Part shown: positions 1,255 through 21,777 of the stretch, piece by piece
Layout of the letters: every line of letters starts with the position of its first letter
How positions within the stretch are numbered: the stretch's first letter is position 1
Virus record (IMG/VR): IMGVR_UViG_3300031603_000026
Coordinates: 1-25,541 of that record
Origin: a virus
Length of the DNA: 25,541 nt
Strand: one strand, 5' to 3'
Translations under genes and position numbers: made by a program
The notes under the pieces: generated by a model
Seen by the model: only the letters and a program-made list of their open reading frames with translations
What the model was told of the DNA's origin: nothing
Database searches by the model: none

Positions 1255-1283
1255 ATTATAACAAATTATTCTTTTTATGTCAA
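1255..1283 (-). promoter_or_regulatory. Consensus sigma70 promoter, family member A (leaderless)
   Basis: TTGACA (1283-1278), 17-base spacer, TATAAT (1260-1255) on the minus strand. The spacer shares AAAAAGAATAAT with five other promoters here; this copy has one substitution (TTGACAT instead of TTGACAA). The predicted start of transcription falls at about 1249-1247, on the helicase ATG. The stop codon of the upstream zinc-ribbon gene (TGA, 1282-1280) lies inside the -35 box. Confidence 0.9.
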
Positions 1284-1438
1284 GAAGAAAACTGAGTAAA
1301 TTCTTTTGATTTAACCTCTACCATTTTCTGGCAATGAGGGCAAAAGCCCATAGGAATTTGATTTTCCATTTTTGTATCAAATCTTGCTTTGAAAACTTCA
1401 TCACATTCTTTACAAGTTACTTCCATTTCTTTTTCCAT
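1280..1438 (-). CDS. Small zinc-ribbon protein (52 aa)
   Basis: Not recognised as a named family. The 52-residue product has two CxxC knuckles, CKEC (residues 9-12) and CPHC (33-36), about 20 residues apart, as expected for a single Zn-ribbon that could contact nucleic acid or a protein partner. The start ATG (1438-1436) overlaps the stop of the preceding 85-aa gene as TAATG, which suggests translational coupling. Its own stop TGA is part of the -35 hexamer of the helicase promoter. It belongs to the DnaE-GGQ-helicase operon. The short length and the overlaps on both sides support it being a real gene. Confidence 0.8.
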   Translation of the reverse strand: MEKEMEVTCKECDEVFKARFDTKMENQIPMGFCPHCQKMVEVKSKEFTQFSS

Positions 1439-1695
1439 TATACTACCTTCACCCATTTTTTTACTGTAATTGTTTCTTCGATCTGATGATATTCTTCAGA
1501 ACTTTGAGAATAGAATTCATTATCCTGCATTTCAGTTAAACCTTCTTCCCAAACAAGCTCATAATATTTATCATCTTCCATCTTAACAATAGTAGAATTA
1601 GATCTGGACCATCTGCGGTTTTCACCTTCTTCAGTTTCTACATCCCATTCAAATACTGCTTCTTTTACTTGATCTGCTGTAAAATGTCTTGTCAT
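1438..1695 (-). CDS. Hypothetical acidic protein (85 aa)
   Basis: Unrecognised. An 85-residue, Glu-rich soluble protein with many aromatic residues (several Trp and Tyr) and a basic end, KKWVKVV. There is no signal peptide, membrane segment or metal-binding cluster. The ATG at 1695 has a good Shine-Dalgarno site (AGGAG followed by ATATA), the same arrangement used by the GGQ gene just upstream. It sits 8 bases after that gene and overlaps the zinc-ribbon gene by TAATG. Position in the operon suggests an early accessory function; nothing in the sequence defines it. Confidence 0.75.
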   Translation of the reverse strand: MTRHFTADQVKEAVFEWDVETEEGENRRWSRSNSTIVKMEDDKYYELVWEEGLTEMQDNEFYSQSSEEYHQIEETITVKKWVKVV

Positions 1696-1703
1696 TATAT
1701 CTC

Positions 1704-2030
1704 CTAAAAATATTCTATTTGTATATTTTCTTCTCTCATTTCTTCATCTACTCTTTTATTAACTTCTTCTACATCTAAGTCCATTTCAAATATCTTTCTA
1801 TTTAACCATATTTTAAACTTAGGATTAGAGGTTAAACCTGTAAAAGCTTCTCTTTGATTAGCTACCTGAGATCTATTTGACTGCCCAGTTCCTATTATAC
1901 CTGTTTCATTATGTTTGATTCGACAGCAGTTTTGGTGTTTATTTCTATATTGACCTCCTGCTCCTGTACCTGAAAACCAAGTAAGAGTAAAGTCCTTTTT
2001 AGTAATTGAAAATAATAATTCCTTTCCCAT
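1704..2030 (-). CDS. GGQ release-factor-like protein (peptidyl-tRNA hydrolysis domain)
   Basis: A 108-residue stand-alone catalytic domain of class I release factors. The GGQ tripeptide (residues 25-27) sits in FSGTGAGGQYRNK, followed by RIKHNETGI and the SNRSQVANQREA segment, all hallmarks of the RF-1 fold that hydrolyses peptidyl-tRNA in the ribosomal A site. It lacks the codon-recognition domain of RF1/RF2. In length it resembles ArfB/YaeJ or PrfH-type proteins, but its C terminus (about residues 80-108) is acidic, not the basic tail that ArfB uses to enter the mRNA channel. The ATG overlaps the preceding stop (TAATG), with AGGAG upstream. It may rescue stalled ribosomes or alter termination during infection; that role is inference. 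Confidence 0.88.
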   Translation of the reverse strand: MGKELLFSITKKDFTLTWFSGTGAGGQYRNKHQNCCRIKHNETGIIGTGQSNRSQVANQREAFTGLTSNPKFKIWLNRKIFEMDLDVEEVNKRVDEEMREENIQIEYF

Positions 2031-2311
2031 TATATCTCCTTAATTCTTTCTTCAAATACATGCCATACTAATGCTCCACCTGCCATTTGTGCAGTTCCTA
2101 CAAACTTAAAAGTATCTATGTTTTTAGGAGTTGAGTTTCCAGTTCCATAGATATGAAACGTCCTTGGAAATAATGGTTCATCAATATTAACTAATGCCCA
2201 TATACACACTTTCTCATACTGCACGTCTACAGATAAAGTTCTGTAGATTATTGGCATGAAAATCTCTTGAGTATCTACAATGTCTAATTCATACTTGTAT
2301 ATCTTTTTCAC
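2030..2311 (-). CDS. Conserved phage protein, DUF7352-like (93 aa)
   Basis: A 93-residue protein with the pattern of a small phage family that I recognise as DUF7352-like: an N-terminal KYELDI strand, a central ALVNIDEPLFPRTFHIYGTG, and the C-terminal signature FVGTAQMAGGALVWHVFE. Function unknown; the fold is probably a small beta-rich domain. The start is GTG at 2311, overlapping the previous gene's stop (GTG/TGA share bases), consistent with coupling. It precedes the GGQ gene with a TAATG overlap. Family assignment is from memory of the C-terminal motif and could be checked by profile search. Confidence 0.8.
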   Translation of the reverse strand: MKKIYKYELDIVDTQEIFMPIIYRTLSVDVQYEKVCIWALVNIDEPLFPRTFHIYGTGNSTPKNIDTFKFVGTAQMAGGALVWHVFEERIKEI

Positions 2312-2478
2312 ATGGCCTCCTTCATAAATTCCTTCAAATCATCTCTAAGAATTTCTTTTCCCATAGAACCAATATAACATTGATGCTCAGGATTATTCAT
2401 CCACGCATCAATAAATTCAAACATTAAATCTTGACCTTCTATTATTCCATCACAATAAAGGTCACCTATCATTCCCAT
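2308..2478 (-). CDS. Small hypothetical protein following DnaE fragment (56 aa)
   Basis: Unrecognised 56-residue product starting MGMIGDLYCDG and ending KEFMKEAM. Its ATG (2478-2476) overlaps the stop of the DnaE fragment as TAATG, and its TGA stop overlaps the GTG of the next gene by four bases, so it is held in a tightly coupled string. It shows no similarity by eye to the missing palm, fingers or OB parts of DnaE, so it is not simply the continuation of the polymerase in another frame. There is one GGAG-like site near its end, serving the following gene. Confidence 0.7.
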   Translation of the reverse strand: MGMIGDLYCDGIIEGQDLMFEFIDAWMNNPEHQCYIGSMGKEILRDDLKEFMKEAM

Positions 2479-3767
2479 TATACAGCCTCCATAAAAAAAT
2501 CGAATACTACATCACTACTTCTCTCGTCCGATAAAAATCTTTGGAACAAAAGCCCGTAATGTATAGGATCCAATGTCGTTATATCTAAAGCATATAAAAC
2601 TAAAGATGAAGCTCCAGATCCTCTTGCGGGACCTCTCATTATCTCTTCACGTTTCGCAAAATTAAAAACATCCCACAATATCATTATATAAGATGAGAAA
2701 CCTTTTCTTAATAAGATCTCTATTTCCTTTAATAGTCTCTTTTTATATTCTGTTGTAAGATCAGCCCATTCTTTTACTCCCATTTTTTCAACTAACCCTT
2801 TAATACTTTCAACTACTAATAATTGATCGTCATTGTCTGTAAGGGAAGGAAGCAGCAGCCTATTTCTTTCTTTGAATTTATAACTACATTTATCACTAAT
2901 TAGTTGAGAGTTCTCACACCACTCGTTAATCTCTGTTTCCGTGTAATTATAGCCCCATTCTTTATTAAATCTATGAAAGTCAGGAATGTCCATATAAAAT
3001 AAATTCTTTCCTTCTAATTCCCAATCTAATTCATCTAAAGTAACACCACGACTAATTGCAATTGCTAATGTTTGAATTTTATCTAATCCTGGCTTTGCAT
3101 AATGAACATCACCTGTTAATACTATAGGAACATTATATTTCTTTGCTAATGATATAATCCATTCATTAACAGAGATTTGCCCTTCTTCAAAGTTATCAAT
3201 TCCATGAGTAATTTCATTCAATTGAATTTCAGCATAGAAATCATCACCAAAATTATCAACAAATAGCTTAAATAGTTTCTCTGATTTTTCAATTTCTTCA
3301 TCTCTATATAATCTTGCAAATGGAGAACCCATACAAGCAGTTCCTACAATCAATCCTTCTTTATGCTCAAACAGTTCTTTAATTGTTATTTGATTTCTAT
3401 AATAAAAATGTTTTTCATCTGAGTTTGATTTATAGTTTAGTTTTAATAAATTCTTATATCCAACTTCATTCTTCGCTAAGAGAACAAGATGCATATTTTT
3501 ATTTCTTTGCCTCTTTTGTTTTCCTTTTACTTCCTTATATCTCTCAAGTTCAAACTCAACATATGCTTCAACTCCAAAGATAGATTTTATTCCATACTTT
3601 TTACAAGCTAAATAATGCTCATAATGACCATTCATTTTTCCATGATCTGTAATTGCTAATGAAGGATGCCCCATTTCCTTTGCTAATTGTGCATATTGGT
3701 CTGGAGATCCTATTCCGTCGAGGGTAGATCCCAAATGTGAATGGAGATGGAGGTGATTATAACTCAA
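2478..3767 (-). CDS. dnaE: DNA polymerase III alpha N-terminal part (PHP domain plus start of palm), truncated or split
   Basis: 429 residues matching the N-terminal third of bacterial DnaE. The PHP domain (about 1-270) shows HLHLHS (residues 5-10), TLDG, ITDHG, GVEAYV, MHLVLLAKNEVGYKNL, an ACMG motif and TGDVHY, so the metal-binding set looks complete and proofreading or phosphoesterase activity is possible. The palm begins with GPARGSGASS (379-388) and ALDITTLDPIHYGLLFQRFL. The protein then ends ...SSDVVFDFFMEAV, at the place where DnaE normally has PDFDxDF with two catalytic aspartates; one of these appears replaced by Val. The rest of the palm, fingers, beta-binding and OB regions are absent here. 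Start is TTG with AAGGAG six bases upstream. Either it pairs with a second polypeptide encoded elsewhere or it is a nuclease-only remnant. Confidence 0.9.
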   Translation of the reverse strand: MSYNHLHLHSHLGSTLDGIGSPDQYAQLAKEMGHPSLAITDHGKMNGHYEHYLACKKYGIKSIFGVEAYVEFELERYKEVKGKQKRQRNKNMHLVLLAKNEVGYKNLLKLNYKSNSDEKHFYYRNQITIKELFEHKEGLIVGTACMGSPFARLYRDEEIEKSEKLFKLFVDNFGDDFYAEIQLNEITHGIDNFEEGQISVNEWIISLAKKYNVPIVLTGDVHYAKPGLDKIQTLAIAISRGVTLDELDWELEGKNLFYMDIPDFHRFNKEWGYNYTETEINEWCENSQLISDKCSYKFKERNRLLLPSLTDNDDQLLVVESIKGLVEKMGVKEWADLTTEYKKRLLKEIEILLRKGFSSYIMILWDVFNFAKREEIMRGPARGSGASSLVLYALDITTLDPIHYGLLFQRFLSDERSSDVVFDFFMEAV

Positions 3768-3784
3768 ATTAAACTCCTTAAATA

Positions 3785-3813
3785 ATTATACAATATTATT
3801 CTTTTTTTGTCAA
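3785..3813 (-). promoter_or_regulatory. Consensus sigma70 promoter, family member B (dnaE operon)
   Basis: TTGACA (3813-3808), 17-base spacer beginning AAAAAAGAATAAT, TATAAT (3790-3785), minus strand. Transcription should begin at about 3778, just at the AAGGAG of the dnaE TTG start, giving a leader of only about 11 bases. It lies in the divergent gap shared with the plus-strand gene at 3875. Confidence 0.92.
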
Positions 3814-3874
3814 GTAAGAAGATTAGGAAATCAATTCGTAAAGGTAAAATAAACAGATAACGATGGAGAACTAA

Positions 3875-5341
3875 ATGGTATCTTTTACAGAATATATTAA
3901 GAATAAAGAAATAAATGAAAAATTTGAGACTGAAACACTATCTTCTGCTATTTCTAAAGTAGCTGATGCAAAGAAGTTTAAGAAAGATATAGAAGTTAGA
4001 AAACAAGCTACAGCTTTGCTTAAGGATGCTGAAAAAGGAAAAGTAGAAAAAGTATATAGAAAAGCCGCTGAAGGTTCTCTTAAACCTACTGATCTTGAAG
4101 ATGAAGGGCTTAAAGATATAGCATTAGCAATATCAGTTTTAACATCTCATAAGAAAAATGACGCTGAAAAAGCTGTCTTGAAAACACATAAAATAGAGCC
4201 TCCAGAAGGAACAACATCTTTTGCTAATTCAACTCTTTCATCTACCCTAAATAAAAAAGCAATGAAGACAGTTTTGTTAGCAGCTAAGTCAGCTAAAACA
4301 GAACCTGAAACTTCGGAAACAGAACCTGAAACTTCGGAAACAGAACCTGAAACTTCAGAAAAAGGTGCTAAAACAGAACCTGAAACTTCGGAAAAAGGTG
4401 CTGAAACAGATGAAGTTGAGCCTAAAGAAACTCCTGCTCAAGTTAAATCAAGAGTAGATAAGAAGATAGATACAACTTCTAAGATTATAGATGCAGGAAA
4501 CACTAAAACACTAGATGGACCTGACGCATCTAAACCTAATAATCCTCAATTTTTCATTAATTCTTTTAAAGCAGATAAAGAAACAGCGATGACTGGTTTT
4601 CAAGAACGTATAGATAAATTTGATGAAGGGAAACAAGCAAAAGGAGCTAGCGTTAAAAATGAGTTTTCAGCAAAAGCAGACAAGATTCTTACAACTATTG
4701 AAACATTAGAAAGAAAATGGAAAGATACTACACTCCCAAGTAAAAAAGATAAATTCTTAAATTTAATCAAAAAGGAAACAAGAACTTTTGATAATTTAAA
4801 AAATACATATGAAGGCAATATAAAAAAAGCTGGTAGCGCAAAAGCGCTTGAAAGAACAGGAATGAGATTAAAGAAAACTGGAGAAAATTTAAAAGGTGCT
4901 TTAGACAAAGTTAAAAAAAGTGAAGTTGCAAAAGATGCAAAAAAAGTATTAGATACAGGAAAAGAGCTTGCAGGAAAAGCCGGTGCAGTAGCAAAAGAAA
5001 CTACAGTAAAAGTTCTTAATAATGCTGAACTAAACACAAATAAAAAATTTATTCAAGCTTATACACCTGCTGATTTCCCCGCTTATTCAAAAGCTGTGTT
5101 AAATAAAGATACAAAAGTTCAACAAGAGTTAATCGATAAAGCAAAAGCGGCTAAAGCAAAAGCAGGATCTGAAAAAGAAATAAAAAAATCAGAAACTAAA
5201 CAAGAAATTGAAGCACGAAAATTAAATAACCAGAAGAATAAAATACTAAAGAAAAAAACTAAAACTCTTACTCCGCCACCTGCCAATACAATGACAACTA
5301 AAACTCAAGAAAAGGTTAATAAAAATATTAAAACAGCATAG
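3875..5341 (+). CDS. Lys/Glu/Ala-rich protein with TEPETSE repeats (488 aa), possible virion or internal protein
   Basis: Unrecognised. A 488-residue, highly charged protein, largely helical or disordered by composition, without Cys or membrane segments. The N terminus reads MVSFTEYIKNKEINE, which in outline recalls the short acidic capsid-targeting leaders of T4 internal proteins (F/Y-x-E-F/Y-I). Residues about 142-175 hold four TEPETSE units with KGA spacers. The C-terminal half is rich in KKxG, KAKA and TKT stretches, suitable for binding DNA. ATG at 3875 is preceded by GGAG. It is alone on the plus strand, facing early minus-strand operons, and ends at a two-way terminator. A structural or DNA-packing role is inference; no domain is recognised. 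Confidence 0.8.
   Translation: MVSFTEYIKNKEINEKFETETLSSAISKVADAKKFKKDIEVRKQATALLKDAEKGKVEKVYRKAAEGSLKPTDLEDEGLKDIALAISVLTSHKKNDAEKAVLKTHKIEPPEGTTSFANSTLSSTLNKKAMKTVLLAAKSAKTEPETSETEPETSETEPETSEKGAKTEPETSEKGAETDEVEPKETPAQVKSRVDKKIDTTSKIIDAGNTKTLDGPDASKPNNPQFFINSFKADKETAMTGFQERIDKFDEGKQAKGASVKNEFSAKADKILTTIETLERKWKDTTLPSKKDKFLNLIKKETRTFDNLKNTYEGNIKKAGSAKALERTGMRLKKTGENLKGALDKVKKSEVAKDAKKVLDTGKELAGKAGAVAKETTVKVLNNAELNTNKKFIQAYTPADFPAYSKAVLNKDTKVQQELIDKAKAAKAKAGSEKEIKKSETKQEIEARKLNNQKNKILKKKTKTLTPPPANTMTTKTQEKVNKNIKTA
4298..4405 (+). repeat. In-frame 21-bp tandem repeats coding TEPETSE
   Basis: Units at 4298-4318, 4319-4339 and 4340-4360 are nearly identical (ACAGAACCTGAAACTTCGGA plus A; the third has TCA for TCG). 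A 12-base spacer coding KGAK (4361-4372), a fourth unit at 4373-4393 and another 12-base spacer coding KGAE (4394-4405) follow. So there is a 21-bp unit and a 33-bp compound unit. Repeats stay in frame and probably vary in number between relatives by slippage. Confidence 0.95.
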
Positions 5342-5343
5342 AT

Positions 5344-5377
5344 AAAAAAGACACTCTTAATTGAGTGTCTTTTTTTT
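5344..5377. terminator. Bidirectional intrinsic terminator
   Basis: Stem GACACTC (5350-5356) pairs with GAGTGTC (5363-5369), loop TTAATT, flanked by an A run on the left (5344-5349) and a T run on the right (5370-5377). It therefore has a U tract in both directions and separates the converging 488-aa and 134-aa genes. Confidence 0.93.
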
Positions 5378-5780: not shown

Positions 5781-5783
5781 TTC

Positions 5784-8343: not shown

Positions 8344-8356
8344 GCAAAATTATCTC

Positions 8357-8617
8357 CTAAATGGAAGCTGCTTTTGGGCCTACTACTATTGGACCTGACC
8401 AATATTTATGCATATTTTCAAATACTATTTCAAAATTTTTTCTATATGGTGGATTATTTAATTCAAACGTTATATTACTACCTCTATCAAAGTTAAAAAT
8501 TTGAATATCTTTATTACAAGTATAATTATTAAATAATTCTATTAAACTTCCAAGCCTTGTTTTTACTACATAATCATTTACAACTTCTTCAAAAGTTCCT
8601 ATCAAATTAATATTCAC
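8357..8617 (-). CDS. Small hypothetical protein after gp47 (86 aa)
   Basis: Unrecognised 86-residue protein. Start is GTG (8617-8615), sharing one base with the TAG stop of gp47 (TAGTG), so translation is likely coupled to gp47. The sequence has short beta-like stretches (SNITFELNNPP; FEIVFENM) and ends SGPIVVGPKAASI. No known motif is visible. Confidence 0.72.
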   Translation of the reverse strand: MNINLIGTFEEVVNDYVVKTRLGSLIELFNNYTCNKDIQIFNFDRGSNITFELNNPPYRKNFEIVFENMHKYWSGPIVVGPKAASI

Positions 8618-9597
8618 TACATTGCTTTCAAAACATCTTCAAAGATAGATAATAATTTATCATTATCTATTCCATCAGCTTTTATATTGTTTGCAATATA
8701 ATCCTTAACCATATCTTTTACTGAAGAATTCATATCAATTGATGCATCATCATCAACACTAATTTCATCTGTATTATCTGCGAAAGAAGGAGTTACATCT
8801 AATGCTCCTCTTTCATAAAGTAGATGTTTTAATTTAACATAGTTATCTAATTTCTCTTTTATAATTACTTGAACAAAACAGTTATTGACATCTTCCTTCT
8901 GGAAATCCTCACCATTTATTCTCTTGTATGTAGGAGCTTGAGTATAATACTTTCTCTCCCATTCATCAGTATCTAAATCTAATACAATAAATCCTTTCTT
9001 CTGCCCAACTTCACCAAAATTCATTTGTCTAAAGGAACCAGGATATATAATATTTCCTTTTGATTGAGGTCTATGAAAATGTCCTGTAAATACTTTATTA
9101 TATCCACTAAAGAGTTTACGGGAAAATCCCGCTTTCTCGTTTACGTGGTATTTATTATCGAACGTAAAATCTGCAATTGAAAGATGAGTTATTAATAAAT
9201 CTCCACCTGAAGGCAGTAAACTTTCATCCTTAGTGTAAGGCAATAAATCTATAGTTCTCCCTCCTAATTGTATTTGTTCGAATGATTTAACAACTTTACC
9301 AAAGACTGAGAATGTCTCTACAAGACTATCATTATCTATATTTGCGATATCATGATTACCCAAAACTATAATAACATTAAATCCTTCATCTTTTAATTCT
9401 TTAAATTTAAAGAATAGTGGAATAAAGGCATCGTTTTGTATTTTTGTAGATTTTTCAAAAACGTCTCCAGCGATAATTATATCTTTAATATTTTCTTTTT
9501 TACAGAATTCTTTTATGTAATCAATATAATCAATGGTGATGCTAACAGCGATTCCTGACTGAACGTGCCAGTCAGCAGTTACAAATACAGATGCCAT
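8617..9597 (-). CDS. 47: SbcD/Mre11-type nuclease, gp47-like
   Basis: The 326-residue calcineurin-like phosphoesterase subunit that pairs with gp46 to resect DNA ends. All phosphodiesterase motifs are present: ADWH (D9, H11), GD (44-45), GNHD (80-83), THLS (H138) and GHFHRPQ (H173, H175), binding two metal ions (Mn in the family). A C-terminal region (about 245-326) with an acidic DDDASID segment would contact gp46. Length is close to T4 gp47 (339 aa). ATG at 9597 is preceded by GGGAGG. Its first 19 bases overlap the end of a small endonuclease-remnant frame, and both are read from the promoter at 9710-9738. Confidence 0.97.
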   Translation of the reverse strand: MASVFVTADWHVQSGIAVSITIDYIDYIKEFCKKENIKDIIIAGDVFEKSTKIQNDAFIPLFFKFKELKDEGFNVIIVLGNHDIANIDNDSLVETFSVFGKVVKSFEQIQLGGRTIDLLPYTKDESLLPSGGDLLITHLSIADFTFDNKYHVNEKAGFSRKLFSGYNKVFTGHFHRPQSKGNIIYPGSFRQMNFGEVGQKKGFIVLDLDTDEWERKYYTQAPTYKRINGEDFQKEDVNNCFVQVIIKEKLDNYVKLKHLLYERGALDVTPSFADNTDEISVDDDASIDMNSSVKDMVKDYIANNIKADGIDNDKLLSIFEDVLKAM

Positions 9598-9709: not shown

Positions 9710-9738
9710 ATTATATCATATTATTCTTTTTTTGTCAA
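9710..9738 (-). promoter_or_regulatory. Consensus sigma70 promoter, family member C (gp47-gp46 operon)
   Basis: TTGACA (9738-9733), 17-base spacer beginning AAAAAAGAATAAT, TATAAT (9715-9710), minus strand. Downstream, ATTAAGGAG lies right at the expected transcript start, much as at the dnaE promoter. The last codons of the upstream 90-aa gene (VDKKRII and TGA) are read from the -35 box and spacer. Confidence 0.92.
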
Positions 9739-9988
9739 CTGTATAGAAGGGTGGTTTTTCTTGCATGAACCTTTCACAAAATGGTATGTAATTAAAGTCA
9801 ACTTTTTTATTATTTTTATTCTCTTCATATTCAACAAATATACGAACCTGTCTTTCTAATTCCTTTAGGAGATAGTCTTTATTCCAAGCAGTTGCTTCTT
9901 CAATTATCATATCTGCATATCTCTGGTTATATTGACTTTTATTTTCAAGAAAATAAACAAACTTTTTAACCATAGTATTAAATCTCAT
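9716..9988 (-). CDS. Hypothetical protein (90 aa) ending inside promoter
   Basis: Unrecognised 90-residue, probably helical protein: charged, with many Glu, Lys and Tyr. I choose ATG at 9988 because GGGAG lies six bases upstream; an in-frame TTG four codons earlier has no such site. It overlaps the 3' end of the HNH gene by 11 bases. The final seven residues, VDKKRII, and the stop are encoded by the promoter at 9710-9738, so the promoter either was inserted into the gene's end or evolved with it. No function can be assigned. Confidence 0.7.
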   Translation of the reverse strand: MRFNTMVKKFVYFLENKSQYNQRYADMIIEEATAWNKDYLLKELERQVRIFVEYEENKNNKKVDFNYIPFCERFMQEKPPFYTVDKKRII

Positions 9989-10571
9989 GATGTCTCCCAA
10001 TTATATCATCAACCAAAAGAGTGTCTGGAAGTAAATCATCCAGTTTTTTAGTCTCTACTTCTTCCCAATTTAAAACACTATTTCTCTCGGAATTCCATAA
10101 AGGAGTAAGATTATTTAAACTCCAGCATTTTTTTATATCGTCTTCATTATAAAAATTGTAAACTTTCATAGGAATAATGTGGTGAACATGCCAGTTTTTC
10201 CTACTTAAAAAAAGGTTTCCAAAATTATTCCAATCCATATCATCTTCAAATTTATCTTGTAGATCTTTCATTAAAGTATGAACTCCATAACCAAGTATTC
10301 TCTCTAGCACTTCTCCCCATGTTCTAAATGTTATTCCAAGATTAATTTTTGACAAAACATTCTGTTTTATTCTATAGTTCATATCACTTTCTTTTTTTTC
10401 AATAAAATAAAGTCTATTTCTTTCTTTAATCTTTTCCTTATTACTCTCATAATATTGTTTAGATTTACTTTTTACTTTATCTTTGTTTTCTTGATACCAT
10501 TTTCTTTTATAATCCTTTATCTCTTTTTTATTGAGATCCCTATAATTTTTACTATATTCTTTTCTATCCAT
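9978..10571 (-). CDS. Free-standing HNH homing endonuclease (197 aa)
   Basis: The N-terminal half (about 1-60) is a string of basic helices with a repeated YxxNKxKxK pattern, a DNA-binding arrangement common in phage HNH endonucleases. The catalytic HNH region is WHVHHIIPM (H130, H131), followed by CWSLNNLTPLWNSERN (154-164), which supplies the Asn and the final His-equivalent positions. Such enzymes cut a target gene and spread by repair. GAGGA precedes the ATG at 10571. It sits between the tail-tube gene (opposite strand) and the gp47 operon. No clear promoter of the conserved family is seen upstream. Nicking specificity is unknown. Confidence 0.88.
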   Translation of the reverse strand: MDRKEYSKNYRDLNKKEIKDYKRKWYQENKDKVKSKSKQYYESNKEKIKERNRLYFIEKKESDMNYRIKQNVLSKINLGITFRTWGEVLERILGYGVHTLMKDLQDKFEDDMDWNNFGNLFLSRKNWHVHHIIPMKVYNFYNEDDIKKCWSLNNLTPLWNSERNSVLNWEEVETKKLDDLLPDTLLVDDIIGRHHEI

Positions 10572-10660
10572 AAATCCTCAAATAATATTCTTTGATAACA
10601 TTACCTTTAATAATCCTATATAAGGGTTAAGATAATTGTATAACTTAATAGGAGACAATA
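10572..10660. promoter_or_regulatory. Divergent intergenic region with weak promoter candidates for the tail tube gene
   Basis: On the plus strand, TTGATA (10592-10597) lies 19 bases from TATATA (10617-10622), a poor sigma70 candidate. TATATAAG (10617-10624) is a loose match to the T4 late box TATAAATA. Further on, TTAAGATAATTGTATAAC precedes AGGAG and the ATG at 10661. I cannot decide which drives the gene. Confidence 0.3.
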
Positions 10661-11200
10661 ATGGCAATATCATTAACAACAAGCAGAAGTTCTAGTTTAG
10701 AAGCTTTAAAGAAAAATAGATTTGTTATGCAATTTACTGCAGTTCCTGGTGGTGGAGAAGCTAGTGACTTAGCTTTTGCAGCTCATACAGCAACTATTCC
10801 ACAAATTACATATAATCCAATTGAATCTCAGAGATTGAATGAGAGATTTTTTACTGCTGGTAAACCAACATGGACTGATCTTTCAGCAACATTTTATGAC
10901 TACATAGCAGGATCTAATTCTTCTGGACAAATCCTTTATGATTGGTCACAGAGCATTTATAATCCTATCACAGGACAAATGTATTTTAAATCACAATACA
11001 GCACATCAGCAACAATCGCTCAATTAGATCCTGCTGGTGGAATTGTTAGATTATGGAACGTTTATTACGTTTGGCCAACATCAGTTGGTTGGGGTGATGC
11101 AATGTCTTATGATGATGATACAATTTCAGAATGTGCAGTGACATTTAAATATGATTATGCTCTAAAAGGAAACGATAAAGATACAAAACCTGCAGTTTAA
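10661..11200 (+). CDS. 19: Tail tube protein, gp19-like
   Basis: A 179-residue protein of the T4 gp19 tail-tube family, which polymerises as stacked hexamers on the baseplate to form the inner tube. Typical features: an N-terminal segment ending RFVMQFTAVP, the ATIPQITYNPIE strand, and LYDWSQSIYNPITGQM, a conserved helix of the family; the C-terminal half is beta-rich (VRLWNVYYVWPTSVGW; ECAVTFKYDYA). Length is close to T4 gp19 (163 aa). AGGAG precedes the ATG. It is a single gene with its own terminator, in a region where both flanking minus-strand genes are homing endonucleases. As a structural gene it should be expressed late. Confidence 0.95.
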   Translation: MAISLTTSRSSSLEALKKNRFVMQFTAVPGGGEASDLAFAAHTATIPQITYNPIESQRLNERFFTAGKPTWTDLSATFYDYIAGSNSSGQILYDWSQSIYNPITGQMYFKSQYSTSATIAQLDPAGGIVRLWNVYYVWPTSVGWGDAMSYDDDTISECAVTFKYDYALKGNDKDTKPAV

Positions 11201-12714: not shown

Positions 12715-13173
12715 TTAATTAATTATAATTTTTTTAGGTTTGATCTCTTCTCTTGCAGGAACAAAGATAGTTAGAATTCCGTCTTTCATCTCGGCTTTGG
12801 AATCTCCTGTATTATATTTTGATACAGGAATTGGAGTTGTTGATTTTACACCTGCTGTCTTAATTCCTTTTTTAAGGATTTTAAGGCTTTCACTTTTTGT
12901 TGATTTTGGAGACTTAATCTCAATTATCATTTTGTCACCGTCAAAATCGACTTCTATGTCGTCTTTATTATATCCGGCTACTGCGTATTCATAAGTTAAA
13001 TCTTTACTTATTTCATCCATATAGATGTTAACTGGTGGGAAATTAGATGTGTGAAAGACTTCACCACATCTTACTACTTCTGGTGAATTAAACACAGATT
13101 CAAAATCTGCAAATAATTCATCAAAAATATTTAATAGGTCATAACTACTTGTGCCATTGTTGTTATTATGCAT
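12715..13173 (-). CDS. hsp20: Small heat-shock protein, Hsp20/alpha-crystallin family
   Basis: A 152-residue holdase-type chaperone. The alpha-crystallin domain runs from about residue 48 to 145: PPVNIYMDE, YEYAVAGYNKDDIEVDFDGDKMIIEIK, then AEMKDGILTIFVPA with the conserved G-I-L strand, and a C-terminal KKIII that matches the I-x-I anchor. The N-terminal arm (MHNNNNGTSSYDLLNIFDELF) is typical of the family. CGGAGG precedes the ATG. It is driven by its own consensus promoter about 60 bases upstream and is followed by a hairpin and the Vsr-type endonuclease. Hsp20 genes are also known from cyanophages; here it may protect phage proteins, alongside the GroES-like gene. Confidence 0.93.
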   Translation of the reverse strand: MHNNNNGTSSYDLLNIFDELFADFESVFNSPEVVRCGEVFHTSNFPPVNIYMDEISKDLTYEYAVAGYNKDDIEVDFDGDKMIIEIKSPKSTKSESLKILKKGIKTAGVKSTTPIPVSKYNTGDSKAEMKDGILTIFVPAREEIKPKKIIIN

Positions 13174-13234
13174 AACAAACCTCCGTAGAGCATTTTATTT
13201 AGTTCCTTCATGCGAAGCAAACTTACTTATTTTA

Positions 13235-13263
13235 ATTATACAACATTATTCTTTTTTTGTCAA
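13235..13263 (-). promoter_or_regulatory. Consensus sigma70 promoter, family member D (hsp20)
   Basis: TTGACA (13263-13258), 17-base spacer beginning AAAAAAGAATAAT, TATAAT (13240-13235), minus strand. It starts three bases after the stop of the 255-aa gene. The expected leader to the hsp20 ATG is about 55 bases, longer than at members A, B, C and F. Confidence 0.92.
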
Positions 13264-14037: not shown

Positions 14038-16002
14038 TTACTCCTTGTACTCAAGAGTCTGTGTCTTACTTCTTAATTTTTTAAATAAAAACTCAATCTC
14101 ATCAAGATTTCTTTCAGCATTTTCTCCGTCAGCTTCTTTATATTTTTTAACAAGTTTCTTTAACCTAATTTGATCTTTCTTAAGTTGATCGTCATCACCA
14201 TCATAATCTTTTGCTAACATTCCTTTGATCATTTTTTCTATCATTCCAGCATCAATTAAATCATCATCATTTATAGCAACAGAGTTTCCAACTATCTTTT
14301 TAGGTTTGGTTGATTTTCTATCTTTTATTTGAACCAATACACCTTTCATCTTATCAGTTATTTCTTCATCACCTTGTTCTTCTTTATCTTTAAATAAATC
14401 TTGAGCTTCTTTCTTTGCTTTATTCAAATCAGAAATAGAATCATACTCTGAACTTGCAATATCTTTAATTTTTCTGTTGAACTCTTCATCTGATAAGAAA
14501 GCTTTCTTTTTATTTTCTACAGATCTCTGTAATTCTTCTGGTGATTTGAATAGTTTATCTGGAGATTTTAATTCTCCAACTGTAATAAGATTATTTATTA
14601 ATCTATACTTTTTAAGATTAGCATAATCTTCTTTAGAAAGTTTTTTCTTTAAATTTCTTTCAAATCTTTTAATCCCAGCTTCTACTGATTTTTCTGCTTT
14701 AACTAATTTATCTGATTTCTTAAAATATTTAGGGTTGAAAAAATCTTCTTCTTTAAGTTTTTGAATATAATCTTTTATTTTTCCAGTAGGAGCTCCTACT
14801 GATGCTCTCAATTCCCAAATTTTTCTTTCTTTTTCATTGAATTCTACATTATTTTTATCTTTGGAAATCTTATTAAAATGTTTCTTTTTTCTTTCATTAG
14901 CTAAGTCAATTAATTCATCAACTATAGTTATATAAGTATCTCTATAAATACTATCTGGTCTATTAGGTTTTAGCTCGTCCATTATTTTTCTTCTTAGAAA
15001 GTAAAGCCCAAGAGCTGCATTGAATCCGCCATTAGCTAATCTAAAATTTTTATTTTTAGTAAAATCAGTTTTACTTTTTCTCACTTCAATAGCTTCTTTA
15101 AGCCCACTATCACTAGCAACTTCAGATTTTTTATTTTCAGCTCTTTCGGCAGCTGCTCTTTTGGCTATAGTTCCTCTTCTATATTGAACATTCTGTTTTA
15201 CTAATTTATTAATTTTTTTAGCTTTATCTAATGAATCTAATTCATCGTCTGCATCAATAACGCCAATGTCTTCTACATTATCTCTTATCTTAAAATAAGC
15301 TCTTCTTAAATCATCCATAGAATAACTAGCAAACTCTGCTTTCCCTAAATCATAGTTTTTTAAAATTCTTTCTTGAACAGAAGCTGGAATTTTTTTACTT
15401 GTTCTAATTCCAGCTTTAAGGATTTTCATATCTGCTATAGTTTTCTCTTGCTTCTCTATAGCTTCTTTGGAATCTTCAAATTTATCCCATTTAGATCCAC
15501 GAGCTTCAATTTTTCTTCTTCCAGACTCAAGAGATGATTTGAATTGTTCTTTAGTCATTCCAAAAGTTTCAGCACTTGTAAGAGTTTTATTTTTTTTAAC
15601 TGTTCTTTTTATTATTTGATATGGAGCTAAAATATTCTTTCTAAAAGACATTATCTCTTCTATAATTTCATTGCCATATTTTTCATGTATCTGTGACAAT
15701 ATTTCTTTTTGCTTCTTACTTAGTTTATATACAGTAGAATCTTTATCTTTCCCTCCAGCATGACCAATTTCAGCTCTAAGTTTCTCTCTTCCTACTACTG
15801 CTTTTATTTTGGCACCTTTGATTGCTTTATCTGCTTTCCCAACAGTAGCATCAGTTACTTTCTGTAAATTTTTTAGGGAGTTTCTCTTTAGAGTTAAGTA
15901 TGCAAGCATAGGACTCATTGGTAGAAACCCTTCTGCTATAATAACATCTTTTATATTTTCTGTCTCTAATTCTGTAAAAATTATATTTTCCAAGCTAGCC
16001 AT
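14038..16002 (-). CDS. Large Lys-rich helical protein (654 aa), possible virion or internal protein
   Basis: Unrecognised. 654 residues, rich in Lys, Glu and Ala, almost entirely charged helical sequence with coiled-coil-like stretches and few Cys. The N terminus, MASLENIIFTELETE, is acidic and is followed by VIIAEGF at about 20-26; I-x-E followed by G fits the T4 prohead protease (gp21) cleavage pattern. AAGGA precedes the ATG, and 31 bases separate it from the UvsW gene upstream. A packaged or scaffold-like protein is a reasonable guess but no domain supports it. Confidence 0.75.
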   Translation of the reverse strand: MASLENIIFTELETENIKDVIIAEGFLPMSPMLAYLTLKRNSLKNLQKVTDATVGKADKAIKGAKIKAVVGREKLRAEIGHAGGKDKDSTVYKLSKKQKEILSQIHEKYGNEIIEEIMSFRKNILAPYQIIKRTVKKNKTLTSAETFGMTKEQFKSSLESGRRKIEARGSKWDKFEDSKEAIEKQEKTIADMKILKAGIRTSKKIPASVQERILKNYDLGKAEFASYSMDDLRRAYFKIRDNVEDIGVIDADDELDSLDKAKKINKLVKQNVQYRRGTIAKRAAAERAENKKSEVASDSGLKEAIEVRKSKTDFTKNKNFRLANGGFNAALGLYFLRRKIMDELKPNRPDSIYRDTYITIVDELIDLANERKKKHFNKISKDKNNVEFNEKERKIWELRASVGAPTGKIKDYIQKLKEEDFFNPKYFKKSDKLVKAEKSVEAGIKRFERNLKKKLSKEDYANLKKYRLINNLITVGELKSPDKLFKSPEELQRSVENKKKAFLSDEEFNRKIKDIASSEYDSISDLNKAKKEAQDLFKDKEEQGDEEITDKMKGVLVQIKDRKSTKPKKIVGNSVAINDDDLIDAGMIEKMIKGMLAKDYDGDDDQLKKDQIRLKKLVKKYKEADGENAERNLDEIEFLFKKLRSKTQTLEYKE

Positions 16003-16033
16003 TGTTTTTCCTTGTGTTTGGTTATATTTATCT

Positions 16034-17389: not shown

Positions 17390-17707
17390 TTAACTGTAAA
17401 CAGCCCAAACAGATTTCGCAGGAATAATTCCTTTCATTGTAGGGTTAAGCGGATCTGCTACATTTTCAACTTTAAACTGTTGAATATCGTGTTCGTTAAA
17501 AACTATACTATCTCCAACTTCAAATCCACAAGTTTCAAGATCAACATTATTACCAATTGTTTCTACAATTGCTTCATGAACTGGTTGTTTATCTGTTTCT
17601 CCATCAATTAATTCAATACCACCAGAAGTAACTCTTTTCTTCTTTTCAATTTCATCAAATCTAAGTATAATCATTTCACCAATTGCTCTTAATACTTTCT
17701 TTGCCAT
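17390..17707 (-). CDS. 31: GroES/gp31-type co-chaperonin
   Basis: 105-residue Cpn10-fold protein that should form the heptameric lid of host GroEL, replacing GroES as T4 gp31 does for capsid protein folding. The N terminus, MAKKVLRAIGEMIILRFDE, and KKRVTSGGIELIDGET (the mobile-loop region with GGI) match GroES; VGDSIVFNEHDIQQF is the conserved C-terminal barrel segment. T4 gp31 is 111 aa. ATG at 17707 has GAGGAG nearby, inside the end of the upstream endonuclease, with which it overlaps by 19 bases. Its place between recA and uvsW is unlike T4 gene order. Confidence 0.92.
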   Translation of the reverse strand: MAKKVLRAIGEMIILRFDEIEKKKRVTSGGIELIDGETDKQPVHEAIVETIGNNVDLETCGFEVGDSIVFNEHDIQQFKVENVADPLNPTMKGIIPAKSVWAVYS

Positions 17708-18588
17708 TTTATCTCCTCTAATTTTTCTTTTATATCTTCATTATATTTTATTCTTAATAATTTTATTCCATTGTTTTTACAATAAATAGTTTTAATTTCA
17801 TCTCTTTTTCTTACTTTTTTAAACTCTTCTATTCCTCCGAAAAATTTTGTAGGTTTATAATGCTGTTTACCATCATACTCAATACATAAATTATAATCTG
17901 GCAAATAAAAGTCAAAATATAAAAGTCGCAAGTTTTTACACTTAGGAAATGTTTTTTGCTGTTCAAACAAAGTTTCATTTTCTATTAACATTTTCTTTAT
18001 TCGCTGCTCTCCACGACTGCTATTAAAACAGTTTGGACATCCATGACCATTTAAATGGCTATATGGTTTTTGCTCAAACTTCCCATGCTTTCTACAGTTA
18101 ATTATAACTTTTGCCTGTGCATTGTTATAGTCAACCAAACTATAATCATAAGTATTTCCATGAACATCTATAGCATCTTCTATAAACTCTTCTGTAGTTT
18201 TTTTTGAAGTTCCATAACATTTTGGACACCCTCTATTACTTAAATGGTCATTAGGTTTTTGTTCAAATCTCCCATGCTTTCTACAGTTAATTATAACTTT
18301 TGTATGATTATTTTTATAGTCAACTAAATTGTAATCATATTTATTTCCATGAATATTTATAGCATCTTCTATAAATATTTCTGTAGTTTTCTTTTTATTC
18401 CCATAACATTTTGGGCATCTATTTTTCTTTAAATGGTCTTTAGGTCTTTGCTCAAACTCTCCATGTTTACTACAGATAATTTTCACTTTTGTATAATTAT
18501 TCTTATAGTCAACCAAACTATAAGAATAAGTATTTCCATGAATATTTATAGCATCTTCTATAAACTCTTCTGTAGTTTTTCTTGCCAC
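17689..18588 (-). CDS. Homing endonuclease with three zinc-ribbon modules and Vsr-like nuclease (299 aa)
   Basis: Three tandem modules of about 63 residues (4-65, 67-128, 130-190), each TTEEFIEDAINIHGNxYxYS...CxKHG...CPKC; Cys at 39/58/61, 102/121/124 and 165/184/187 with a His beside the first. Such modules are common in phage proteins annotated DUF723 (family name from memory). The C-terminal nuclease has FDFYLPDYNLCIEYDGKQHY (226-243) and NNGIKLLRIKYNED. It begins with GTG sharing a base with the recA stop (TAGTG) and overlaps groES, so it sits in the recA-groES junction without harming either. It is a close paralogue of the gene at 20858-21742. Modules also repeat at DNA level. Confidence 0.88.
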   Translation of the reverse strand: MARKTTEEFIEDAINIHGNTYSYSLVDYKNNYTKVKIICSKHGEFEQRPKDHLKKNRCPKCYGNKKKTTEIFIEDAINIHGNKYDYNLVDYKNNHTKVIINCRKHGRFEQKPNDHLSNRGCPKCYGTSKKTTEEFIEDAIDVHGNTYDYSLVDYNNAQAKVIINCRKHGKFEQKPYSHLNGHGCPNCFNSSRGEQRIKKMLIENETLFEQQKTFPKCKNLRLLYFDFYLPDYNLCIEYDGKQHYKPTKFFGGIEEFKKVRKRDEIKTIYCKNNGIKLLRIKYNEDIKEKLEEIKWQRKY

Positions 18589-19865
18589 TAACTGTCTTTT
18601 TCCATTGCTGATATCATTTCAGAAGTTTCATACTCATCTTCATCTTCAGCTAAATCTCCCAAGTCATTAACTTGAACATGCCTTTTAACTTCTTTCATTC
18701 TAATTTCTTCAGCCTCTAATAAAGTCTGAAATGTATTAATTGTATTCTCTTCGTCTTTAACGATAAGAGGAATAAAATCTTTCTTGTAAAACGAATCATC
18801 ACCATTCCATCCTGCAATAGTATATCTGCTACCAGACTTCTTAGCTAATCCAAAATCTTTCAATAAAGTAAATAGTCCAGAATACTTAATAGGTCCAACT
18901 GCGAAGTCTAATAAAAACCAGCAATTTCTACGTTCAGTTCCAAACCTTGATTTAGTTATCTGTCCTCTAATTGACTTAAGAGAACTACCAAGAGAAGTTT
19001 TTCTTCTCTCTTTTTCAGCAGTCATTTCCTTATCAGATACTTCACCATTTGCTGCTAATTCAGTGAATCTAACTGAAATACTCGGATTATACTCCGCATT
19101 TACCCCTCCAGTTGCTTTCCATGGATCATATATGTTACCAATATTTGTGTATAATTTATTTGTGAAAATAAACGCTATATTTGATTTTTCAAATGCTGTA
19201 TCAAAAGTTCTAAAAAACTGACCAACATTCTGAGATCTAGCACCCATGTCGACGGTTCCACCAAATTCTCTTACTGACTGTAGATTTCCTAATGAATCCA
19301 ATAGTATTAAAATTTTAGCTTCTTTCAATTTAGAGTTAAATTCTAAAGCGTTAACCATCTTTTTTACCTGACGGGTAGCTCCTTCGACGTAATGGTTTTC
19401 TGGGGTATCTGTATTAACTGGAAATTTATTATCTGCAACATCCTCAATCTTACTTGTTTTCTTATTGATCTTGTAATTACCAAAAGTATGTGCCTTTAGT
19501 ATCCTAACTTTTTTAGGATCAACTCCAGCAAATTCAATAAGTTCTTTTGCGTGTCCTCCGCCTTCTGTTTCCAAAATGATAATCATATCTAACTTGGGAT
19601 CTCTCATAACTGTTGCAGCTAATAAAGATTTTCCTGTTCCTGATAACCCATCAAAGGAAGTTATTCTCCCACCAGGAATTCCATAACGGAGATTCTTTGA
19701 CATAGCATAATTAAGAGAATAAACTCCTGTATCATACCAGTGTTTTACTTTTCCATCTATTTTGGATAAGTCAATTACATTTTTAAACTGCGAGTTGATA
19801 AGTTTGTCTAATTCACCAAAGATATCACTACCAGTTTCTTCTTTCTTTGTTTTTGCTTTTGCCAT
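18588..19865 (-). CDS. uvsX: RecA/UvsX-type recombinase
   Basis: 425-residue strand-exchange ATPase. Walker A is GLSGTGKS (73-80), the catalytic Glu is in ILETEGGG (E99), Walker B is ILILLDSLG, and loop residues FTNKLYTNIG follow, in the order of the RecA core. The C-terminal tail is acidic (LAEDEDEYETSE), as in UvsX and RecA. It catalyses D-loop formation for recombination-dependent replication, working with the gp32-type protein upstream and UvsW downstream. ATG at 19865 has GAGGG. An intrinsic terminator or attenuator lies between it and the ssDNA-binding gene. The TAG stop overlaps the endonuclease GTG. Confidence 0.95.
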   Translation of the reverse strand: MAKAKTKKEETGSDIFGELDKLINSQFKNVIDLSKIDGKVKHWYDTGVYSLNYAMSKNLRYGIPGGRITSFDGLSGTGKSLLAATVMRDPKLDMIIILETEGGGHAKELIEFAGVDPKKVRILKAHTFGNYKINKKTSKIEDVADNKFPVNTDTPENHYVEGATRQVKKMVNALEFNSKLKEAKILILLDSLGNLQSVREFGGTVDMGARSQNVGQFFRTFDTAFEKSNIAFIFTNKLYTNIGNIYDPWKATGGVNAEYNPSISVRFTELAANGEVSDKEMTAEKERRKTSLGSSLKSIRGQITKSRFGTERRNCWFLLDFAVGPIKYSGLFTLLKDFGLAKKSGSRYTIAGWNGDDSFYKKDFIPLIVKDEENTINTFQTLLEAEEIRMKEVKRHVQVNDLGDLAEDEDEYETSEMISAMEKDS

Positions 19866-19876
19866 TAATTCCCTCT

Positions 19877-19910
19877 TAATAAAACATGGACACTTTAATA
19901 GTGTCCATGT
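19877..19910 (-). terminator. Terminator/attenuator between ssDNA-binding gene and recA
   Basis: Perfect 11-bp stem ACATGGACACT (19884-19894) with AGTGTCCATGT (19900-19910), loop of five, followed on the minus strand by TTTTATTAA. It lies between the gp32-type stop and the recA ATG. The weak U tract suggests partial termination, giving more ssDNA-binding protein than RecA. Confidence 0.85.
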
Positions 19911-19921
19911 CTATGTTGTGT

Positions 19922-20758
19922 TTAACTGAATTCTGCTAAAATATCATCGATTGCATCAACGTCAGCTTCTTCTTCAACCTTTGCGGGTTTCTTTGAAGTT
20001 GCTGCTTTTTCAGTTTTAGATACTGGAGCAGATTTTGTTTCTGCTGGTTCTGTAGAACTTTCATCAGGATTAAGAAATTCATTAACTGCTTCTTTAAGTG
20101 CTTCCACTGAAGGAAATTCAATTAAAGAACTATAATCCATTCCTTTTACTGCAGTAAGAACTTTTTTAAGATCTTCACGATCCTCAAAAATTGCTGTGAT
20201 GTTTGGATCTGGCATACTATTATCATAGTTTGTTCTTCGACCAGTTCCTTGCTTGTCTATAATAAAATCTCTTCCTTCAAGAGGATGAACAATGTTTCCA
20301 TATTTTCCACCTTTCATTATTCCAAAAAACTTTTTAAAGATAGTCGGTCCAACTTCATAGAACTCAGGTTCGGTAATGGTATTCTCGTCTTTTGCTCTAT
20401 CAACAATTCTAAAAATGTATCTGTCTTTACCAGATAATTCGTAAGCAATTTCTCTTTCCTCAGAATCCCTTTCTCCAATCTTGTAAAACTTTTTAGATAT
20501 TTTACATGCCGGACATGCTTCTGCTTCATGAACATTACCATTTTTATCAGTAAATGTTTGAGCTACACATTCATAAGGAGTTCCGTCTATCCAGTGTGTT
20601 TTGTGGTGGAAATAGGGTAAGATTTCCCCTGCTGATTTTACAGGTGGTAAGAATCGAATGTTATTTTCGTCCGGTTCTGGACTCCAAAAATTTCCGCCTC
20701 CCTTTTTTTGATCACTTTCCATTGCAGCAAGCATTATCGCTGTCTCATTTTTATCCAT
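19922..20758 (-). CDS. 32: Single-stranded DNA-binding protein, gp32-like
   Basis: 278-residue gp32-family protein covering ssDNA in replication, recombination and repair. The OB-fold core begins at about residue 22 (GNFWSPEPDENNIRFLP). A zinc site fits the family: His 51/52/55, then C64, C82 and C85 (ECPAC-like EACPAC), as in T4 gp32 (His plus three Cys). The acidic C terminus (EEEADVDAIDDILAEFS), preceded by a Ser/Ala/Lys linker, is the protein-interaction tail. AGGAG precedes the ATG. It has its own strong promoter with an 80-base leader, heading the recA-groES-uvsW group. T4 gp32 is 301 aa. Confidence 0.96.
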   Translation of the reverse strand: MDKNETAIMLAAMESDQKKGGGNFWSPEPDENNIRFLPPVKSAGEILPYFHHKTHWIDGTPYECVAQTFTDKNGNVHEAEACPACKISKKFYKIGERDSEEREIAYELSGKDRYIFRIVDRAKDENTITEPEFYEVGPTIFKKFFGIMKGGKYGNIVHPLEGRDFIIDKQGTGRRTNYDNSMPDPNITAIFEDREDLKKVLTAVKGMDYSSLIEFPSVEALKEAVNEFLNPDESSTEPAETKSAPVSKTEKAATSKKPAKVEEEADVDAIDDILAEFS

Positions 20759-20791
20759 TTTGTTCTCCTATGCCTTTTGTCGGTTGCCATA

Positions 20792-20841
20792 TTGGGCTAT
20801 TGGACAGTTGGGCTAATTATTTTAAGTCCTATACGGGACTT
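20792..20841 (-). promoter_or_regulatory. Structured leader of the ssDNA-binding gene
   Basis: The expected transcript starts near 20840 and opens with a small hairpin, AAGTCC (20824-20829) with GGACTT (20836-20841). Two TAGCCCAA copies on the mRNA (plus-strand TTGGGCTA at 20808-20815 and 20792-20799) follow, 16 bases apart. T4 gene 32 mRNA is autoregulated through its leader; this could be a comparable site, but I see no proven pseudoknot. Confidence 0.4.
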
Positions 20842-20846
20842 GATTT

Positions 20847-20875
20847 ATTATATCAGATTATTCTTTTTTTGTCAA
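20847..20875 (-). promoter_or_regulatory. Consensus sigma70 promoter, family member E (gp32-recA operon)
   Basis: TTGACA (20875-20870), 17-base spacer beginning AAAAAAGAATAAT, TATAAT (20852-20847), minus strand. The end of the upstream endonuclease gene (LTKKE and its TAA stop) is read straight from the -35 box and spacer. Confidence 0.92.
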
Positions 20876-21742
20876 GCAATTACTCAACTTACAATTTATA
20901 TCTTCATTATAAGCTATCCTTAACAACTTAATATTATTATCATTACAATATTTATTTTTAATTGCATCATTGAATTGTGTTTTATACAATTGATCAATTC
21001 CACCAAAATACTCAATAGGTTGAAAATGTTGCATCCCATCATATTCAATACAAATATTTCTTTTAGGTAAGTAAAAATCAAACCTTAATTTATTTATTTT
21101 AAGGAAGCTTTTTTCCCTTTCATAATAAAAATTTTTTTCAATTAAAAACTTTTCAATTTTCATTTCTCCTTTACTAATATTACATAGTCTACATCCACTT
21201 CCTCTTAAATGACTTTGTGGAACTTGTAAAAATTCTCCATGAACAGGACAGATGATTTTTATCTTAGTCCTATAGTTTATATATTTAGATAAAGAATAAT
21301 CATATTTATTTCCATGAATTTTAATTGCTCTTTCTATAAATCTTTTAACTGATAATTTATTATTTCCATAACATTTTGAACACTTTTGCCCTAATAAATG
21401 ATTATTAGCCTTTTGCAAAAAACTACCATGAATAGGACAGACTATTTCTACTTTAGTTCGTGAATTAATATAATTTACTTTCGAATAATCATATTCATTT
21501 CCATGCATATTAATCGCATTTAAAATAAAATCTTCTGTTGTCTTTTTATTATTCCCATAACACTTAGAGCACCCTCTTTTCATTAAATGTTTATTAGGCT
21601 TTTGCAAAAAACTACCATGAATAGGACATATTATTTCTATTTTAGTTTGTGAATTAATATAATTAACTTTCGAATAATCATACTTATTTCCATGAATATT
21701 TATTGCGTCAATAATAAATTGTTCAGTAGTTTTTCTTTCCAT
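20858..21742 (-). CDS. Homing endonuclease with three zinc-ribbon modules and Vsr-like nuclease (294 aa), leaderless
   Basis: Same architecture as the 17689-18588 gene: three modules TTEQFIIDAINIHGNKYDYS...CPIHG...CSKC, then a nuclease with FDFYLPKRNICIEYDGMQHF and NDNNIKLLRIAYNED. I set the start at ATG 21742 (MERKTTEQF) because it aligns with MARKTTEEF of the paralogue. A longer frame from ATG 21781 would translate the promoter itself. The ATG lies six bases after TATAAT, so the mRNA should be leaderless. Its stop codon is inside the promoter of the ssDNA-binding gene. It lies between the gp26-type gene and gp32. Confidence 0.88.
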   Translation of the reverse strand: MERKTTEQFIIDAINIHGNKYDYSKVNYINSQTKIEIICPIHGSFLQKPNKHLMKRGCSKCYGNNKKTTEDFILNAINMHGNEYDYSKVNYINSRTKVEIVCPIHGSFLQKANNHLLGQKCSKCYGNNKLSVKRFIERAIKIHGNKYDYSLSKYINYRTKIKIICPVHGEFLQVPQSHLRGSGCRLCNISKGEMKIEKFLIEKNFYYEREKSFLKINKLRFDFYLPKRNICIEYDGMQHFQPIEYFGGIDQLYKTQFNDAIKNKYCNDNNIKLLRIAYNEDINCKLSNCLTKKE

Positions 21743-21748
21743 ATCTTC

Positions 21749-21777
21749 ATTATACAACATTATTCTTTTTTTGTCAA
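21749..21777 (-). promoter_or_regulatory. Consensus sigma70 promoter, family member F (leaderless endonuclease)
   Basis: TTGACA (21777-21772), 17-base spacer beginning AAAAAAGAATAAT, TATAAT (21754-21749), minus strand. It follows four bases after the U tract of a terminator, so stem-loop and early promoter form one unit, like the PeSL elements described in T4 relatives. The start of transcription falls on the endonuclease ATG. Confidence 0.92.

Follow-up and report, generated by a model that had tools for sequence, protein, structure and literature searches.

A lineage-specific sigma70-type early promoter with an invariant spacer word in a clade of uncultured phages

The uncultured virus record IMGVR_UViG_3300031603_000026, analysed here over 25,541 nt (25.5 kb; hereafter the window), carries six near-identical promoter sites, each consisting of TTGACA, a 17-bp spacer that begins with AAAAAAGAATAAT, and TATAAT. 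An earlier reading made from the letters alone (the sequence-only reading) had placed six such promoters on the minus strand, heading the DnaE, gp47, hsp20, gp32 and endonuclease units, and the pattern scan reproduces their positions, strand and assignments, with a Dda/PIF1-like helicase as the sixth unit (Table 1). Five of the sites match TTGACAAAAAAAGAATAAT-N4-TATAAT exactly, and the remaining one (1255–1283) has a single change, T for A at −29. The six-site pattern gave no match in 100 dinucleotide shuffles of the window, i.e., a chance expectation of zero, and no perfect hexamer pair 17 bp apart was found elsewhere in the window. The 17-base spacing described earlier holds for the hexamer pair, but these 17 bp are the whole −35/−10 spacer (13 fixed and 4 variable bases) and not 17 further bases after the 19-mer. 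The helicase gene, which runs beyond the window end, has its ATG at 1249, 5 nt past the −10 hexamer, and its message is probably leaderless; in the Dda orthologs of the window and of the relatives G001, G002, G003 and G008 the ATG lies 5–8 nt past the −10 hexamer, and leaderless Dda messages are probably conserved across these five phages. The endonuclease-like function of the ORF (open reading frame) at 20858–~21742 is a predicted one. Short hairpin-like sequences, also present in relatives, occur in the leaders of gp32 (20759–20846, minus) and Hsp20 (13174–13234, minus).

Table 1. Early promoters and late-type boxes in the window (G-numbers denote relatives)
Feature	Coordinates	Strand	Context
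Early promoter, −29 off consensus	1255–1283	−	heads Dda/PIF1-like helicase gene
Early promoter, exact	3785–3813	−	18 nt ahead of DnaE N-terminal part (2478–3767); orthologous promoters in G001, G002, G003, G008
Early promoter, exact	9710–9738	−	upstream of gp47/SbcD-like gene (8617–9597); overlaps 3′ end of ORF 9716–10000
Early promoter, exact	13235–13263	−	62 nt ahead of Hsp20 gene (12715–13173)
Early promoter, exact	20847–20875	−	89 nt ahead of gp32-like ssDNA-binding protein gene (19922–20758)
Early promoter, exact	21749–21777	−	heads zinc-finger, endonuclease-like ORF (ATG ~21742, end 20858), ATG 6 nt past −10
Late-type box GTAAAGGTAA	3838–3847	+	upstream of plus-strand ORF 3875–5341
Late-type box GTTAAGATAAT, variant form	10626–10636	+	upstream of tail-tube gene 10661–11200
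Late-type box GTAAAGATAA	16028–16037	−	upstream of ORF 14038–16002

A scan of relatives for the 29-bp pattern, a check named beforehand in the sequence-only reading, was carried out on the IMG/VR database, where nine other records carry the exact promoter pattern. At three or fewer mismatches these relatives hold 126 sites and the window 6, giving the set of 132 copies used below (5 further sites at 4–5 mismatches were left out), and a reversed-pattern control gave zero matches in the records. The strand bias is kept in the relatives, e.g., 39 of the 42 sites in G001, at 201 kb the largest record, are forward and 3 reverse, and a same-strand ORF start lies within 400 bp of 121 of the 132 sites. 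As predicted from these genomes, the clade uses one composite promoter for nearly all of its early and replication genes. The window has 17–23 proteins in common with G001, G002, G003, G006 and G008, at 56–69% mean identity, and cultured phages are distant, with DnaE and UvsX identities below ~35% among the matches listed. Relaxing positions −29/−28 adds G010, G011 and L091, with clade proteins common to all three, as well as L083, which has a single site and no clade proteins in common; of the 13 IMG/VR records that carry the full composite, 12 belong to one clade.

Strong conservation across the 132 sites spans about −42 to −5, with none further upstream, and the composite is about 36 bp long. 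The proposed order of its elements is A/T at −38 to −42, which fits a proximal upstream (UP) element, C at −36 (76 sites), TTGACA (nearly all sites), two loose bases at −29/−28 (mostly A, with T and G tolerated), the 11-base word AAAAGAATAAT at −27 to −17, a variable WTGN at −16 to −13 (TG at −15/−14 in 86 sites), and TATAAT, in which tolerance is limited to −10, −9 and −8. Each position of the word is constant in 129–132 sites, as invariant as the −35 and −10 hexamers, with G at −23 in all 132 and AATAAT nearly invariant. In its hexamers and their placement, the composite agrees with host-sigma70 early promoters, in which TTGACA and TATAAT lie 16–18 bp apart ahead of early genes. ORF starts cluster 17–22 nt past the −10, and a weak A/G enrichment after the start fits ribosome-binding sites; at 24 sites the ATG lies 4–7 nt past the −10, consistent with leaderless messages. 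At 31 sites the TGA within TTGACA is the in-register stop codon of the upstream ORF.

The spacer was compared with its flanks, as the sequence-only reading had proposed, at 88 pairs of promoters, each pair lying ahead of genes that are reciprocal best hits between two records (the pairs do not count as independent events). Identity between orthologous promoters is 1.00 for the 11-base word, 0.99 for the −35 and 0.95 for the −10, and it falls to 0.74 at −29/−28, 0.53 at −16 to −13 and 0.40 in the 50-base flanks on either side, compared with flank identities of 0.31–0.38 between unrelated promoter pairs. The word is thus identical at orthologous sites while the flanks are near random, which argues for selection rather than copying and supports purifying selection on the word in fixed register, beyond shared ancestry. 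The earlier proposal that something reads AAAAAAGAATAAT gains support from this result, with the core narrowed to AAAAGAATAAT and the −29/−28 positions relaxed.

In the same ten records (the window and its nine relatives), AAAAGAATAAT occurs 132 times, 124 times in promoters and 8 times elsewhere, against 7.2 expected elsewhere under a second-order Markov model. Wherever TTGACA lies within 24 bp upstream of the word, the gap is always 2 bp (120/120). Perfect hexamer pairs number 114 at N17, 112 of them with the word, 0 at N16 and 1 at N18. At the level of sequence, an invariant word is thus found in a fixed register, restricted to promoters and to one clade. Pairs close to consensus but lacking the word occur about as often as in a reversed-hexamer control (17 vs. 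15; 220 vs. 221), and the word-bearing promoter therefore seems to be the sole class of sigma70-type consensus promoter that these phages have.

In sigma70 promoters the spacer sequence is ordinarily unconstrained. Among near-perfect promoters, spacer pairwise identity against shuffled spacers is 0.35 vs. 0.32 in phage K, 0.36 vs. 0.30 in A511, 0.32 vs. 0.28 in T5 and 0.32 vs. 0.25 in SPO1, compared with 0.86 vs. 0.43 in the motif clade (terminal-repeat duplicates were dropped by hand, leaving 45 of 50 sites in K and 23 of 25 in A511; the 3 sites of T4 were left out of the scoring). In Listeria phage A511, several early promoters at 127785–132213 have TTGACTTTA-N-ATAA-like spacers in common, a lesser instance of spacer similarity. 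Closer to the clade, the sister records G014, G015 and G016, with DnaE 50–55% identical to that of the clade, keep TTGACA-N17-TATAAT ahead of the gp32, Hsp20 and DnaE orthologs and others without the word, which indicates that the word is lineage-specific and not a general need of the polymerase. The spacers of G014 are close to shuffled (0.42 vs. 0.40), whereas those of G015 (0.76 vs. 0.52, n = 6 sites) have their own, different A/T-rich word, for which a search found no other contig. The G014 gp32 promoter (43737–43765, minus) contains AAAGAATAAT one base out of register, possibly a trace of how the spacer word arose. In a DnaE tree the six sampled word-bearing phages group together, split from the sisters with a local support of 0.999, which, on this tree, places the gain, or loss, of the word at clade level. 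The sequence-only reading would have been contradicted by a spacer varying freely in close relatives; such variation is absent within the clade and appears only in sister lineages, at 50–55% DnaE identity. Taken with the conservation results above, the free spacers of K, A511, T5, SPO1 and the sister lineage argue against a copied-cassette (PeSL) and a plain A-tract reading of the word.

A second box, GTAAAG(A/G)TAA, was found through words enriched upstream of ORFs; it has no −35 and lies 20–60 bp ahead of ORFs on both strands. Of 99 GTAAAG(A/G)TA boxes, 81 are followed by an ORF within 150 bp, and a matrix of the box gives 100 matches against 29 for its reverse-complement control. The structural genes, on the opposite strand, are predicted to be served by this late-type box instead of the early promoter. 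For a 127-aa conserved protein (G001 181827–182210) the AlphaFold2 (AF2) model resembles sigma region 2, and sigmaE region 2 and T4 gp55 make up its six best structural matches (E 0.07–0.75; the best, with T4 gp55 among them, at E 0.07–0.27 and prob ~0.99), suggesting a candidate late sigma that may read the late-type box. Together, such a sigma and its box would explain why the early promoter is missing before structural genes. This absence, claimed in the sequence-only reading, is nearly but not fully borne out, as the G001 reverse sites 82288, 101139 and 127770 lie inside a large minus-strand gene block, which is taken to be structural from its size and orientation. A second sigma-like candidate, G001 78856–79527, was not used since its AF2 model is poor (pLDDT, the predicted local distance difference test score, of 45), and the late-sigma family phrog_12791 matched T4 alone, 1 of the 16 records. 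Reading of the early spacer by the late sigma was rejected, for the late matrix scores about −5 bits there, although AAAAGAATAAT and GTAAAGATAAT look alike.

Since promoters of equal strength elsewhere tolerate a drifting spacer, the word must have some additional role, and the constant distance it keeps from both hexamers suggests a contact in which the polymerase takes part. We tentatively favour a lineage-specific composite sigma70 promoter whose spacer is recognised by a DNA-binding factor that docks on the promoter–polymerase complex; a repressor for early shut-off and direct reading by the host polymerase are serious rivals. Host RNA polymerase with its main sigma would recognise the −35, the extended −10 and the −10, as inferred through established promoter biology from the perfect hexamers, TGN, UP bases and usual tolerance pattern, and the 11-bp word would offer the factor a separate sequence-specific contact in fixed register. 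This factor would most likely be phage-encoded or virion-delivered, an adaptor by which phage promoters gain an edge over those of the host or are told apart from them. The narrower claim, that a phage-encoded and possibly injected adaptor reads the word in otherwise perfect host-sigma promoters, is held more cautiously still. In the favoured reading, we infer transcription from the sites, an adaptor instead of a repressor, and a phage-encoded reader.

Several points weigh against such an adaptor. The early promoters seem to comprise those that fire first, and an activator made early in infection would miss them unless it was injected; a perfect −35/−10 pair should need no activator; and a repressor, or the host polymerase itself, would fill the factor's role equally well. 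Pfam MotA and AsiA were unmatched in 10 records, where no positive control matched either, and family scans of ~50 G001 proteins gave no obvious reader. A PC4-like coactivator scores above the cut-off in G001, G004 and G005 among 16 records scanned, which is a lead only; PC4 proteins bind single strands.

If the factor were a repressor, the word would be an operator, at which an early-made phage protein shuts the strong promoters off together at the late programme or at superinfection. Perfect promoters need switching off, not activation, the late programme owns a separate box, and early shut-off in T4 is still unexplained according to the available portion of a review (PMC2988021). However, all 132 sites keep the word in one register and one orientation and show next to no graded degeneracy; the word also lacks palindromic symmetry and has no surplus copies outside promoters. 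The operator is considered less probable than the adaptor.

It is likewise less probable that the word is read directly by the main-sigma RNA polymerase of a host lineage with unusual promoter preferences, even though the word behaves as a part of the core promoter. One clade contig is binned in a Spirochaetia metagenome-assembled genome (MAG), a weak host hint, but the three other perfect promoters of this MAG have free spacers, as do the promoters of the sister lineage G014/G016 at orthologous genes. A scan of bacterial genome contigs found the composite in just 4, of which L048 is itself a clade phage contig and L045 and L047 have one site each, and in G013, the genome behind L046, the word occurs in 1 of 18 perfect promoters; use of the word in host promoters was rejected on these grounds.

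Selection for DNA shape, i.e., A-tract bending or flexibility instead of base-by-base reading, would account for the A-run behind TTGACA in nearly all sites and for the different A/T-rich word of G015. The complete conservation of G−23 and the near-invariance of AATAAT, however, leave an A-tract bend alone, one of the options of the sequence-only reading, insufficient, and other A-rich spacers are hardly found in the clade, so that shape as the selected property seems quite improbable. The other option of that reading, a PeSL-like cassette whose sameness reflects recent copying, fits the many near-identical copies, some at lineage-specific places, but was rejected as very improbable because the promoters sit at orthologous positions with diverged, near-random flanks, vary at −16 to −13 and −29/−28, and are preceded within 100 nt by a terminator-like hairpin at only 5 of 131 sites (control, 8 of 524 upstream regions of other ORFs). 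Loading at the word of a Q-like antiterminator, which binds between −10 and −35, would match the spacer location of lambdoid Q binding elements (PMC6606751), yet it too is highly improbable, as −10-like pause sequences are not in excess downstream (26/132 vs. 29.7 in shuffled sequence) and terminator-like hairpins follow within 100 nt in 4 of 131 cases.

Among known systems, the early promoters of T4 ("uber" UP/−35/TGn/−10) resemble the composite as very strong host-sigma promoters with UP and extended −10 elements, and additional consensus regions have been reported for them (PMC2988021, in part). The T4-type early −35 is GTTTAC-like (PMC1524935, in part) with an UP A-tract, in contrast to the TTGACA of nearly all 132 sites and an A/T stretch confined to −38 to −42; moreover, the 3 near-consensus TTGACA-N17-TATAAT sites of T4 have spacers that are all different, whereas the clade spacer is fixed. 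The Kayvirus vB_SauM-515A1 has dozens of TTGACW-N17-TATANT early promoters and a late box without a −35 (PMC7698491, in part), much as in the clade, but in phage K the spacer is nearly free. T4 MotA middle promoters likewise combine a phage element with a host −10 at replication genes; there the MotA box sits around −30 in place of a −35, an arrangement that the composite does not share, its −35 being perfect and its extra element lying at −27 to −17. The lambdoid Q binding element is also a phage-protein site inside the −35/−10 spacer, but it belongs to late promoters, contains direct repeats in phage 21 and needs a −10-like pause (PMC6606751, in part), which is not enriched in the clade. PeSL cassettes of T4-type phages are repeated early promoters as well, and the clade promoters differ in having no consistent stem-loop and no flanks in common.

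No invariant promoter spacer is described in the portions available of PMC2988021, PMC1524935, PMC7698491, PMC6606751, PMC6070864 and PMC4503421, and literature searches, covering mostly titles and the beginnings of abstracts but no figure logos, turned up no report of one; the novelty of the frozen-spacer early promoter is thus provisional. A clade that freezes 11 spacer bases at its early promoters suggests that the transcription machinery makes a contact with phage promoters that has so far gone unrecognised. The word offers a sharp, testable sequence for fishing out its reader, and the sister phages, whose early genes are the same but whose spacers are free, serve as a natural control. If the proposed adaptor is real, phages would have, besides MotA-type appropriation and Q-type loading, a third means of labelling promoters as their own, and it would have arisen in one uncultured T4-like lineage.

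Other features of the clade were also observed. DnaE is encoded in separate pieces (window 2478–3767, minus; G001 173770–174672 and 175524–175964), and in G001 an intein-splicing domain (PF14890) at the end of the middle piece suggests that the DnaE pieces carry split inteins; between the pieces lie endonuclease-like genes that stand on their own. UvsX of G001 is intein-bearing (661 aa vs. 425 in the window). The region G001 23049–41579 (L050, L051) contains ~21 tRNA genes, one with a CUA anticodon and several directly behind early promoters, together with a tmRNA gene with the tag DETETYYAQVA. G001 further encodes a PTH2-type peptidyl-tRNA hydrolase, a peptide deformylase and, at 189486–190508, a Tubulin/FtsZ-family GTPase (PF00091), a family that some large phages also encode. 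In the window, a small RF-1-domain protein (PF00472; 1704–2030, minus) is possibly a ribosome-rescue factor.

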